From: Halorhodospira halophila
GTDB taxonomy: Bacteria; Pseudomonadota; Gammaproteobacteria; Nitrococcales; Halorhodospiraceae
NCBI RefSeq assembly: GCF_016653405.1
Contig: NZ_NHSN01000001.1
Span: 62,001 to 126,000 of the forward strand
Direction of reading: 5' to 3'
DNA length: 64,000 nucleotides
The translations under genes and the position numbers were made by a program. Position 1 is the stretch's first letter; every line of letters starts with the position of its first letter. Below, in pieces: positions 15,670 through 21,226 of the stretch. The notes beneath the pieces are model-generated. The model worked only from the letters and a program-made list of their open reading frames with translations, did no database searches and had not been told where the DNA came from.

Positions 15670-16185
15670 ATGAAGAACCAACAGTGGATCAAGCTCCCTG
15701 CCACGGCAGCTGCCCTGGCGCTGGTGTTCAGCGTGAGCGCCCAGGCCCAGCAGGATCCGGGCATGGGGCAGCAGGATCCCGGTATGCAGCAGCAGGATCC
15801 GGGGATGGGGCAACAGGACCCCGGCATGCAGCAGCAGGAGCCGGGCATGGAGCAACAGGACCCCGGCATGCAGCAGCAGGACCCGGGCATGGCCCAGCCG
15901 GAGCCTGACCAGGCCACCTTCAGCAGCGACCAGATCGAGCGCTTTGTTGACGCTTATCTGGACATCATCGACATCCAAGAGCAGTACACCTCCGAGATCG
16001 AAGGCACCGATGGCGCCGAGGACGCTCGTGAGCTGCAGGAGCAGGCCAACGATGAGATGGTGGCGGCGATCGAGGACAACGGCCTGAGCGTTCCCGAGTA
16101 CTCTGAGATCGCCAATGCCATGGACATGGATCCGGAACTGCGCGACGAGGTCTCGTCCAAGATCCATGAGCGCGAAGGCGGCTGA
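15670..16185 (+). CDS. Exported DUF4168 protein with heptapeptide repeats
   Basis: The 171-aa product starts with a signal peptide (cleavage probably after AQA, residue 26). Seven copies of a QQDPGM-containing heptad follow (residues 27-74), then a helical DUF4168-like domain (about 82-168) that is strongly acidic. The gene has a GAGGAG SD and its own terminator, so it is monocistronic. Function is unknown; location is periplasmic or extracellular. The repeat is rich in Gln, Asp, Pro, Gly and Met, and may be a flexible spacer or a metal-binding segment; the latter is speculation. Confidence 0.82.
15748..15891 (+). repeat. 21-bp coding tandem repeat
   Basis: Seven near-identical 21-bp units encode x-QQ[DE]PGM directly after the signal peptide of the DUF4168 protein. 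Variation between units sits mostly in the first residue (G, Q or E) and at synonymous positions. In-frame 21-bp repeats of this kind can change copy number by slippage without breaking the frame. Confidence 0.9.
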
Positions 16186-18204: not shown

Positions 18205-19599
18205 ATGGAACAACGGCTTGACTTCGATCGCGATTTGCTGCGCCGCTACGATGTAAGCGGACCGCGCTATACGTCGTACCCGACGGCGCCCCAATTCCAT
18301 GAAGGGTTTGACGCCCAGGCTTACGCCGCGGCAGCCCGGGCCACCAACGAGGCGGATCACCCCAACCCCCTGTCGGTCTATGTGCACGTGCCGTTCTGCC
18401 GCAATGTTTGCTTCTATTGCGCGTGCAACAAGATCGTGACGGCGAATTACGGCCGTGCCCAGGAGTACCTGGAGCACGTGTTCAGGGAGATCGAGCTCCA
18501 GGCACAACTTTTCGGAGACCACCGACGCGTTGAGCAACTGCACCTGGGAGGCGGCACCCCCAACTACCTCACGGTCGACGATCTGGGCCGCCTGGTCGAG
18601 AAGCTGCGCGAGCAGTTCACCCTCGACGACACCGATCACCGGGAGTTCTCCATCGAGATCGACCCGCGCGACGTGCAGCTCGAGGATATCGGTCGCCTCG
18701 CCGAGCTCGGTTTCAACCGCATGAGCGTAGGCGTTCAGGACTTCAACGAGGACGTGCAGGCAGCGGTCAACCGCGTACAGAGTGCCGAACTCTGCCGTTC
18801 GATCATCGAGGAAGGCCGGCGACACGGGTTCCGCTCGACCAACGTCGATCTCATCTACGGCCTCCCCAAGCAAACGGTGGAATCCTTCGAGGAGACCCTG
18901 GACGAGGTCATTGAACTGCGCCCTGAGCGCTTGGCGATCTACAACTACGCCCACCTGCCGCACCTGTTCAAGATCCAGCGGCAGATCAACGAGGACGAGC
19001 TGCCCGGTCCCGAGGACAAGCTGACCATCTTTGGGCGCACCATCGAGAAACTCACCGAGGCCGGTTACGTCTTTATCGGCATGGATCACTTCGCCCTGCC
19101 CGATGACGAACTGGCCGTGGCGCAGAAGAAAGGCACCCTGCACCGTAACTTCCAGGGGTACTCCACACGTGCCGAGTGCGACCTGATCGCCCTGGGGTCC
19201 ACTTCCATCGGCAAGATCGGCAACACCTACAGCCAGAACCTGCGGGATCCCGAGGAGTACCAGCAGCGCATCGCCAACGGCGACCTGGCGGTCTTCCGCG
19301 GCTACGAGCTGAACGAGGATGATCTGCTACGCCGGGAGGTGATCATCGAGGTCATGTGCCACTCCCGTCTCGATTACGCGGACATTGAGGCGCGGCACGG
19401 CATCAACTTCAACGAGTACTTCGCCGATGCCCTGGAACGGCTGCAGCCGCTGGTTGAAGACGGGCTGATGGAGATGGACGACCGCCACCTTCAGGTACTT
19501 CCAAGAGGGCGGTTAATGCTCCGCCACGTCGCCATGGCCTTCGATGCCTACCTGGAGCGCGAAGCCAATGAGGGCAAGCGCTATAGCCGCGTGCTGTAG
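18205..19599 (+). CDS. hemN: Oxygen-independent coproporphyrinogen III dehydrogenase
   Basis: The 464-aa radical-SAM enzyme decarboxylates coproporphyrinogen III to protoporphyrinogen IX without O2. The cluster ligands are Cys65, Cys69 and Cys72 (CRNVCFYC), with Cys74 following, as in E. coli HemN. GGGTPNY and the HemN C-terminal domain are present. An anaerobic haem/bacteriochlorophyll route fits a phototrophic or facultative lifestyle. No FNR-type box (TTGAT-N4-ATCAA) is visible upstream. Confidence 0.95.
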   Translation: MEQRLDFDRDLLRRYDVSGPRYTSYPTAPQFHEGFDAQAYAAAARATNEADHPNPLSVYVHVPFCRNVCFYCACNKIVTANYGRAQEYLEHVFREIELQAQLFGDHRRVEQLHLGGGTPNYLTVDDLGRLVEKLREQFTLDDTDHREFSIEIDPRDVQLEDIGRLAELGFNRMSVGVQDFNEDVQAAVNRVQSAELCRSIIEEGRRHGFRSTNVDLIYGLPKQTVESFEETLDEVIELRPERLAIYNYAHLPHLFKIQRQINEDELPGPEDKLTIFGRTIEKLTEAGYVFIGMDHFALPDDELAVAQKKGTLHRNFQGYSTRAECDLIALGSTSIGKIGNTYSQNLRDPEEYQQRIANGDLAVFRGYELNEDDLLRREVIIEVMCHSRLDYADIEARHGINFNEYFADALERLQPLVEDGLMEMDDRHLQVLPRGRLMLRHVAMAFDAYLEREANEGKRYSRVL

Positions 19600-20779
19600 G
19601 AGGCTCTGGCGAGGGGGCGTGGCCGCATCGGCCCTGGCCACGGCGGCAAGCGCCGTGGCCGGGCCGACCCTCCCCGATACGCAAGTTCTGGACCCCGGGC
19701 AAGTCGATGCACGCGGGACCCTGGGATTCAGCTATTTCGGCGCGGGCCAGGGCACGACCATGGATATCCTGCCCACGCTGCGCGCCGGTCTTCCGGGGCC
19801 TTTCGACGTCGCGATCACGGTTCCCTACCGGCACGACCTTGAAGAGGACGAGTACGCTCTGCGCAGCTCGTTCCGTACCGACTTCTCCTTCCGGATCCAC
19901 GACGACGGGCGTCGCCGGGCGGTGCTGCGGGGCTACACCACCTTCGACCCGGCAGACTCCGGGGAGCGAGTTGGGAGCGGATCGCACAACTACGGGGTCA
20001 GTGCCGATTTCCGGGGCGAGGACTGGCTGGTCCCCGGAGCCTTCTACCTCCGCGGCGCTCTCGAGCGCCACGACCACCGCCAAGATCCCGGCAGCGGCGA
20101 CCTCGACTATCGGCTGGCGAATCGGCTAACCGCCGAGGCCGGTGTGGGTCTGGATACCGACATCGATGCCGAGCCCTATCTCGGGATCCGCGGCACCCAG
20201 GGGCTGGGATCGACGACTCGGGATCAGCAGAGCCTGTCCTTCCGTCCGGGCATTCGGTTTCGCATCACGGGCAACTCCGAGCTCCAGTTCCTGGCTCAGT
20301 TCGATACCGTGCAGCGCAACGCTGAGCCCGAGCGGGCGATCTTCGCTACGTGGACGTACCGGCATCGCCCGCCGGATCGCGATCTGGATAGCCTCCGCGA
20401 GCGTATTGCCGCCAACGAGACAGCGATCGAGCGCCTGGATCGGCGGGTGGGGGATATTGAGCGCCGGCTGCTGACGCGTCCCGAGGTTCCCGAACCCGAG
20501 GCGACCGGAGGCGTTGTCGTGCTGAACCACTCCGGTATACCGGAACTGACAGCCCTGGTCGTCGATACCCTGGAGACCCTTGAGCTATCGGTTGCGGAAG
20601 CCCGTGAGGAGGACGACGTGGCCCGCCGGGACCGCACAAAGATCCTCTATCGGCCGGGGCATGCCGAACGGGCTCGGGAGATCGCCCGCGCCCTCCCGGG
20701 CAATCAGCTGATCGAGCAGCGGGAGGATCTGCCTGATCAGGCCGAAATCGCCGTGCTCGTCGGCTTCGACCTGGAGTAG
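19568..20779 (+). CDS. Predicted outer-membrane beta-barrel-like protein with LytR_C domain
   Basis: The 403-aa product begins with a signal-peptide-like segment (residues 1-32, basic then Ala-rich). Residues about 45-255 are alternating polar/aromatic strands with many Gly, Asp and Arg (FSYFGAGQGT, FDVAITVPYRHDL, LQFLAQFDTVQRN), which suggests a transmembrane beta-barrel. A short coiled coil (about 265-300) links to a C-terminal domain (about 313-402) that resembles LytR_C (PF13399): VVVLNHSGIPELTALVVD, ILYRPGHAERAREIA, EIAVLVGFDL. ATG at 19568 has GGAG 10 nt upstream and overlaps hemN by 32 bp, so the two may be co-transcribed. Function is unknown. Confidence 0.7.
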   Translation: MRASAIAACCRRLWRGGVAASALATAASAVAGPTLPDTQVLDPGQVDARGTLGFSYFGAGQGTTMDILPTLRAGLPGPFDVAITVPYRHDLEEDEYALRSSFRTDFSFRIHDDGRRRAVLRGYTTFDPADSGERVGSGSHNYGVSADFRGEDWLVPGAFYLRGALERHDHRQDPGSGDLDYRLANRLTAEAGVGLDTDIDAEPYLGIRGTQGLGSTTRDQQSLSFRPGIRFRITGNSELQFLAQFDTVQRNAEPERAIFATWTYRHRPPDRDLDSLRERIAANETAIERLDRRVGDIERRLLTRPEVPEPEATGGVVVLNHSGIPELTALVVDTLETLELSVAEAREEDDVARRDRTKILYRPGHAERAREIARALPGNQLIEQREDLPDQAEIAVLVGFDLE

Positions 20780-20823
20780 CCCCCTTGCCCTCGGAGCACT
20801 GTATCGCTATCATGCGACGCGCT

Positions 20824-20897
20824 GGCTAGGTGGCAGAGTGGTGATGCAGCGGCCTGCAAAGCCGTGTACGTGGGTTCGATTCCCGCCCTAGCCTCCA
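20824..20897 (+). tRNA. tRNA-Cys (GCA)
   Basis: A full cloverleaf can be drawn: acceptor GGCTAGG / CCTAGCC, D-arm GCAGAGTGGTGATGC, anticodon stem GCGGC / GCCGT with loop CTGCAAA (anticodon GCA at 20856-20858), T-arm GTGGG-TTCGATT-CCCGC, discriminator T and encoded CCA. The U73 discriminator is the cysteine identity element. Confidence 0.96.
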
Positions 20898-20958
20898 CCA
20901 CCTTTCCCCATCGGCTATCGCCCCCTCCAAATGTCATGGCGAAGTCGATCCCCCGCCT

Positions 20959-21043
20959 GCCCAGGTGGCGGAACTGGTAGACGCAGGCGACTTAAAATCG
21001 CCAGGCTTATGCCGTGCCGGTTCGAGTCCGGCCCTGGGCACCA
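20959..21043 (+). tRNA. tRNA-Leu (TAA)
   Basis: The acceptor GCCCAGG / CCTGGGC, anticodon stem GGCGA / TCGCC with anticodon TAA (20993-20995), a long type II variable arm, T-arm GCCGG-TTCGAGT-CCGGC, discriminator A and encoded CCA are all present. It lies 61 bp after tRNA-Cys on the same strand and is probably co-transcribed with it. Confidence 0.96.
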
Positions 21044-21061
21044 TGCCGGGCGCCTTGCCGC

Positions 21062-21092
21062 GCCTACGCGGCCTACGCGGCCTACGCGGCCT
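21062..21092. repeat. 9-bp tandem repeat downstream of tRNA-Leu
   Basis: Three perfect copies of GCCTACGCG (21062-21088) and a partial fourth (GCCT). The rest of the 183-bp gap to pgsA holds only short GC stems, the clearest being GCCGG / CCGGC at 21149-21164. I see no gene there. Confidence 0.85.
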
Positions 21093-21226
21093 CTACCCCG
21101 ATCCCGCAACTCGATGGCTGTCGGCACCAAACGATGCCCCCTCGAAGGGCCGGCTCAAACCGGCGGCGGGGTGCCGGCGGCCGAAGGCGGCCTAGTCGCC
21201 CGCGCCCTGCCCGTCCCATCCACGTG

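Follow-up and report, generated by a model that had tools for sequence, protein, structure and literature searches.

A LytR_C domain on a stalked, predicted outer-membrane barrel in Halorhodospira halophila: a possible strap from outer membrane to cell wall

OmpM, as presented in the available part of its description (PMC10628300), is a trimeric barrel whose coiled-coil stalk is tipped by an SLH domain that binds the wall; it works as both tether and channel, and it is said there to be absent from Gracilicutes. LytR_C domains have otherwise been described in the cell-wall proteins of mycobacteria and of Gram-positive bacteria, their usual company, according to the accessible portions of two papers, being LCP ligase domains (PMC11832169, PMC11481543), whereas COG4313/Phenol_MetA_deg proteins are reported as outer-membrane channels for the uptake of hydrophobic molecules, with Pput2725 given as a 12-stranded barrel in the excerpts of the same source (PMC9581022). 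Here we describe P0001, a protein encoded in the window, by which we mean the whole stretch of 64,000 nucleotides taken from contig NZ_NHSN01000001.1 (positions 62,001 to 126,000) of Halorhodospira halophila. In its reading frame, open for 403 residues, an apparent signal peptide, a predicted outer-membrane barrel, a coiled coil and a LytR_C domain follow one another (Table 1). This protein may represent a previously undescribed strap between the outer membrane and the cell wall.

The C-terminal domain was likened to LytR_C in the initial annotation, and a search with the PF13399 hidden Markov model bears this out, with 32.8 bits over residues 316-400 (E-value 1.4e-7) against a curated cut-off of 22.2; LytR_C was the sole Pfam match in P0001 at E-values up to 1, and an NCBIfam scan returned no domain. 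A paralogue in the same genome and of the same build, P0002, shares 26% identity with P0001 over 359 aligned columns, and its LytR_C domain scores 39.1 bits, also above the Pfam cut-off. Structurally, a profile of 24 LytR_C tails, run against the PDB, matched 2m5y (E-value 2e-6) as the only solved LytR_C structure, an entry named ‘Putative tuberculin related peptide’ that the available part of one paper identifies as Rv0431/VirR, with a five-stranded sheet and helices (PMC6151718). The next matches were to a Tet4 Variant (E-values 0.0026 and 0.0033), with no single stretch passing alone. The model of the P0001 tail has five strands and two helices at a mean predicted local distance difference test score (pLDDT) of 70.3; searched with this model, Foldseek gave no match at an E-value of 0.001 or below, and VIA-align gave a top Z of 4.8 to periplasmic XcpY, which we do not interpret, with 2m5y not among the matches listed. 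All 24 tails keep the N and G of an N-x-S-G turn and show near-invariance at S, Y, L-P, G and D, and two of the six invariant positions in the alignment of 22 proteins, N320 and G323, lie within LytR_C.

Ahead of this domain lies a beta-rich region (residues 33-268) in which beta-periodicity reaches a z of 5.3. The barrel parts of the 22 relatives have a median of 3.04 (lowest 0.80), and the controls give medians of -0.13 (eight soluble proteins of the window, highest 1.95) and -0.25 (the 24 LytR_C tails). Averaged over the family, the barrel profile has a z of 7.4, a value that none of 2000 shuffles attained, and among its 16 best ten-residue windows 12 score at least 0.41 and four at most 0.34, yielding a count of 12 strands that depends on a cut chosen after the values were seen. 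Two comparison sets scored lower (medians of 1.81 for eight PF13557-like proteins and 1.44 for four TraF_2 proteins), so this test is no calibrated barrel detector. By homology, the barrel profile (A4) matched 22 of 369 gammaproteobacterial genomes, five of them through barrel-LytR_C proteins and 17 through barrel-only proteins (18 loci) that carry no LytR_C, and PF13557 (Phenol_MetA_deg) was passed by eight of the ten barrel-only loci scanned with Pfam. A profile-profile comparison aligned the barrel with eight barrel-only relatives, seven of them with PF13557, over 214 columns at 97.5% probability (E-value 8.6e-12), the relatives being a set chosen by the barrel profile itself; neither the TraF_2 barrels nor, as a control, the LytR_C tails showed a relation to the barrel alignment. 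Against the PDB, the barrel profile found just Opa60, an opacity protein, at non-significant E-values of 0.28 and 0.31, the profile of the relatives found just phospholipase C SH2 domains at 0.024 and worse, which we take as chance, and neither profile matched a PF13557 structure. The last barrel strand of several outgroup proteins, read by eye, ends in G-x-x-aromatic-x-hydrophobic, a known strand-end motif that is less clear in P0001. At the level of sequence, these results support the prediction that residues 33-270 form an outer-membrane barrel distantly related to the Phenol_MetA_deg/COG4313 barrels; the barrel of the initial annotation has thus gained strand alternation and profile homology on its side, and nothing from structure modelling (see below).

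The coiled coil proposed between barrel and LytR_C holds up in a heptad test. Its heptad core in P0001 consists of L276, I280, N283, I287, L290, V294, I297 and L301, and in all nine proteins of group A (P0001 and its eight orthologues, which are related and hence not independent in this test) the heptad score was reached by 0 of 500 shuffles. Over the 22 relatives, 18 had at most 25 of 500 shuffles scoring as high; the test failed in P0002 (which with its orthologues makes up group B), both proteins of genome G282 and one of three from genome G085, where the linker is no clear coiled coil. In P0001, 41 residues separate barrel and LytR_C; the first alignment gives a spread of 38 to 91 for the 22 relatives, and one G085 protein has a linker of 212 residues in all with a Pro/Gln-rich stretch. 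A helix at residues 273-302, with block pLDDT values of 62-74, also appears inside an otherwise unusable model of the full-length protein.

A survey of how widespread the architecture is, proposed with the initial annotation, placed it in nine of the 12 family genomes and in four further gammaproteobacterial families. Within the family, the full-length profile found 15 loci, with one or two copies per genome, and the relative at locus L003 is 81% identical. Throughout the order (54 genomes searched), LytR_C occurred in the same nine family genomes, whereas the 42 genomes from elsewhere in the order had none. An even sample of gammaproteobacterial genomes had LytR_C in 10 of 369, the own genome included, and five of these ten carry barrel-LytR_C proteins, namely the own genome, G085 (three copies), G168, G282 (two copies) and G412; among the others, G344 and G154 were read by eye alone and G173 was left out. 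The phylum sample had LytR_C in 9 of 397 genomes, again with the own genome counted, of which G485, G501 and G569 were left out and G455 stands without a Pfam scan. Evolutionarily, all 22 fused barrels fall on one side of the barrel tree (support 84/87), and G412 groups with group B (support 99/97). Because the fused barrels share one side, the architecture has been kept through a divergence in which barrel identity falls to 15%. The tree allows a single fusion but does not show it.

Functionally, we posit, with about even confidence, that P0001 is an outer-membrane barrel whose coiled-coil stalk holds LytR_C at or near peptidoglycan and that it thereby straps the outer membrane to the wall, so that the link to peptidoglycan or a partner protein raised in the initial annotation is still the reading we favour. 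The signal peptide would send the protein through Sec, and BAM would insert its N-terminal barrel of about 12 strands; the coiled coil, about 30 residues and roughly 45 Å long if helical, would point into the periplasm and probably join several copies into an oligomeric stalk, the tip of which would hold LytR_C some tens of ångströms below the membrane, where peptidoglycan lies. LytR_C would there bind peptidoglycan, or a peptidoglycan-bound partner, non-covalently, so that the protein would serve the purpose for which OmpA, Pal and OmpM use other domains. The rest of the envelope bears on this proposal. LCP (PF03816) was found in none of 12 genomes searched, ten of them of the family, with seven of 14 control genomes positive, and therefore LytR_C works there without its usual partner; Lpp was found in none of six genomes, with the E. 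coli control positive. OmpA domains (PF00691) occur in all 12 genomes, in 66 proteins, and P0001 itself has no PF00691 match at E-values up to 1.

Several results weigh against the strap. LytR_C function is called yet unknown in the accessible text of a 2024 paper (PMC11481543), and for VirR, the most thoroughly studied protein with LytR_C alone, the available part of another proposes a scaffold role through protein contacts (PMC11832169). AlphaFold2, given a two-sequence input, modelled the whole of P0001 at a mean pLDDT of 34.6, and this model was not used. Five PF13557 proteins gathered independently (of seven loci in ten genomes, two of the five being 94% identical) gave no match to the barrel profile, with a 369-residue open reading frame of G010 among them (PF13557 E-value 4e-7) reaching the barrel profile weakly, at an E-value of 8.8e-4. 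Barrel-LytR_C is absent from three of the 12 family genomes, G001 (83% complete), G005 (77%) and G010 (99%), and is therefore not essential across the family. Wall anchors, moreover, exist already, as Pal-like and inner-membrane OmpA-domain proteins are present in the family: the own genome and G006 each encode five OmpA-domain proteins, which by eye comprise a Pal-like lipoprotein, three proteins that begin with a transmembrane segment (MotB-like) and a MotY-like protein. Lastly, barrel-OmpA proteins were found at 0 of 48 among the OmpA-domain proteins read by eye (of the 66, in eight of the 12 genomes; L137 of G008 was seen partly, and L150, L151 and L157 through the last 330 N-terminal residues). 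Since this absence extends to G010, G013 and G015, which have no barrel-LytR_C, it is not specific, and the idea that barrel-LytR_C replaces a missing barrel-OmpA is weakened.

LytR_C might instead be a domain for protein-protein docking or self-association, the barrel holding a periplasmic partner (an envelope enzyme, say, or the products of the operon of the paralogue, a TraF_2-type barrel and a lipoprotein) near the outer membrane without touching peptidoglycan; we regard this as possible, though our confidence falls clearly below even. It would accord with the reported binding of VirR to itself and to LCP proteins through LytR_C and with a review that ties LytR_C to oligomers in the case of LcpA (PMC11832169 and PMC7831098, both as far as available), with a coiled coil that already implies oligomers, and with the TraF_2 barrel gene that follows the paralogue. 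However, the LCP proteins that are its reported contacts were not found in any of the 12 genomes, so P0001 would need a different contact partner, and the P0001 gene has no such operon partner, its neighbours being hemN, two tRNA genes and pgsA.

The protein could also be mainly a diffusion channel for hydrophobic molecules, with stalk and LytR_C merely stabilising or positioning the barrel, which we think improbable. The profile relationship to PF13557-type barrels points that way, as do the uptake function of COG4313 proteins and the 12 strands of Pput2725 (PMC9581022, in the excerpts available), but the relation is distant: P0001 and P0002 have no PF13557 match at E-values up to 1, and neither the independent PF13557 set nor a PF13557 structure was matched. 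With N320 and G323 among the six invariant positions, moreover, LytR_C is no loose appendage. That LytR_C usually accompanies LCP ligase domains might suggest a part for P0001 in linking glycopolymers to the wall, the role of LCP-LytR_C ligases (PMC11832169, PMC11481543, by the parts available), yet P0001 has no LCP domain (Pfam, E-values up to 1) and the 12 genomes have none either, with half of the controls positive; we therefore reject LCP-type ligation, to which we give hardly any credence.

For the strap between outer membrane and wall speak LytR_C proteins on other anchors, since the lipoprotein-like TPR-LytR_C proteins described here, two of them among Tad-type genes, again point to an outer-membrane setting. 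In G351 and G256 LytR_C is borne by a short protein with a lipoprotein signal, and in G154 by one with TPR-like repeats (all by eye); G256 and G351 have no barrel of the P0001 family at an E-value of 0.01 or below. TPR-LytR_C proteins with lipoprotein-like starts (by eye) were present in all three of the other Pseudomonadota scanned with Pfam (G427, G670 and G612), and the surroundings in G427 and G670 hold Tad-type genes, with T2SSE and T2SSF in both, TadB_TadC_N in one and secretin in the other. Such lipoprotein-like TPR proteins, once with LytR_C in two copies, stand in Tad-type rows at L102:8908-10710 (-) and L103:8296-9405 (-), which suggests that they act at the outer-membrane secretin or pilotin. 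The gene order in G085 is ACPS, two successive barrel-LytR_C genes, CYTH, MFS/Acatn, one unscanned open reading frame, glycosyl hydrolase 3 and MscS; that in G256 is PALP, methyltransferase, a lipoprotein-like LytR_C gene, CYTH, one unscanned open reading frame, glycosyl hydrolase 3 and MscS. The same place thus holds the same LytR_C on a different membrane anchor, a barrel in one genome and a lipoprotein-like protein in the other. We take the glycosyl hydrolase 3 gene to be nagZ and the MFS gene to be ampG, presumably both of peptidoglycan recycling. In a tree of the tails, those of the lipoproteins share one half with the G085 tails and group A, across a weak fork (30/87). More broadly, we tentatively raise the idea, in which our confidence stays clearly below even, that LytR_C is a second, OmpA-independent wall-anchoring module of Proteobacteria on interchangeable anchors (stalked 12-strand barrel, lipoprotein, or TPR pilotin-like lipoprotein), the barrel form being an OmpM-like tether that would have arisen independently in Gammaproteobacteria.

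Table 1 Features of the P0001 locus, with coordinates given as positions in the window.
Feature	Position	Strand	Remarks
Barrel - coiled coil - LytR_C gene, P0001	19568..20779	+	403 aa plus stop; orthologues in 8 further family genomes, full-length or near it
Signal peptide region, residues 1-32	19568..19663	+	Basic start, hydrophobic run, AVA-G; read by eye
Predicted 12-stranded outer-membrane beta-barrel, residues 33-270	19664..20377	+	Strand alternation; profile matches and hhalign to PF13557-type barrels
Coiled-coil stalk, about residues 271-302	20378..20473	+	Heptads L276 to L301
LytR_C domain, PF13399, residues 316-400	20513..20767	+	Pfam, tail profile, tail model
hemN-type gene, conserved upstream neighbour	18205..19599	+	Name from reading of the protein; not claimed as functional partner
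tRNA-Cys	20824-20897		Downstream of P0001 gene
tRNA-Leu	20959-21043		Downstream of P0001 gene
pgsA-type gene	beyond tRNA-Leu	-	Opposite strand

In its genome, which we take to be that of a salt-lake purple bacterium, the P0001 gene overlaps the 3' end of hemN by its first 32 bases, an upstream ATG at 19544 being an alternative start; the signal peptide and its cleavage site were read by eye, without a predictor. A promoter and terminator scan of 19300-21200 found nothing specific to the gene, and neither did a search for a ribosome-site pattern at the related locus L017. The sole promoter-like match in that interval, 20785-20813 (+), probably serves the tRNA genes, because it lies just ahead of tRNA-Cys. 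At all eight loci where the gene before group A is visible, the window among them, that gene is hemN (the ninth locus begins at a contig end), but the surroundings also include fabA and fabB, so the adjacency reads as a shared neighbourhood; of the link with hemN raised in the initial annotation, the conserved position stands and a functional tie is not adopted. G282, which belongs to another family, also has a hemN-type gene at one gene's remove from a barrel-LytR_C gene (L058:8778-12833 (-)), which may be coincidence. Upstream of fabA, at 15670-16185 (+), the window encodes a small secreted-looking protein with QQDPGM-type repeats, and a similar open reading frame occupies the same place in G006.

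Group B has a neighbourhood of its own, in which a TraF_2 barrel gene follows the barrel-LytR_C gene at all three scanned loci and, by shared sequence read by eye, at the other three of six; a lipoprotein-like gene comes after it at three loci (L019, L023 and L029, by eye). Provided that the listed GTG start is correct, the group-B gene of the own genome shares 4 bases with the TraF_2 gene behind it; upstream of this paralogue the same strand carries another TraF_2 gene and a small gene of lipoprotein-like type. The apparent operons of group B are at L001:170-2682 (-), L018:5844-8442 (-), L019:4819-9171 (-), L023, L027 and L029.

The barrel and LytR_C are both known families, and we did not find their combination in print; most subscription papers lie outside the search, so this is no proof of absence. 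Papers with the phrase LytR_C domain were by title all mycobacterial or Gram-positive; LytR_C with outer membrane and Gammaproteobacteria gave no LytR_C among the matches listed, the LytR C-terminal domain with lipoprotein or Tad gave matches whose listed entries lack the phrase, and the long name of LytR_C or Halorhodospira gave none with the name among those listed. LytR_C with TPR and outer membrane had no match, and LytR_C with beta-barrel had a lone one, whose sole matching passage concerns the LCP domain name. Since LytR_C here sits in Gram-negative cells, with no LCP found, on a probable outer-membrane barrel, the family poses a clean question, namely whether LytR_C on its own binds peptidoglycan. 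If it does, Proteobacteria would gain one more tie between outer membrane and wall, and the mycobacterial LytR_C proteins a likely mechanism.

Among known systems, VirR/Rv0431, Cei/Rv2700 and the LCP-LytR_C ligases share the LytR_C domain with P0001, whose family of tails matches 2m5y, but VirR and Cei have, in the accessible parts of their reports, one predicted transmembrane segment and stand beside LCP proteins (PMC11832169, PMC7831098), whereas the anchor predicted for P0001 is an outer-membrane barrel, and the genomes searched yielded no LCP. The Phenol_MetA_deg/COG4313 proteins (PF13557) offer what is probably a distantly homologous barrel, and the profile averaged over the P0001 family has 12 strand-like peaks; the barrel-only relatives of this type lack LytR_C, and P0001 lacks a PF13557 match of its own. 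OmpA and Pal likewise place a small periplasmic domain behind a barrel or on a lipid anchor, much as LytR_C occurs both in barrel proteins and in lipoprotein-like ones, but theirs is PF00691, which P0001 does not have, and LytR_C is a different family without a proven wall ligand. By analogy, the nearest known layout would be that of OmpM, an unrelated protein. Like OmpM/SlpA of diderm Terrabacteria, P0001 would join an outer-membrane barrel through a coiled-coil stalk to a domain at its periplasmic end, its barrel and wall binding being predicted; P0001 has no SLH domain (Pfam, E-values up to 1), and whereas OmpM, in the available part of its description, carries SLH at the N-terminus and the barrel at the C-terminus (PMC10628300), P0001 shows the reversed order, with a LytR_C tip and a gammaproteobacterial host.

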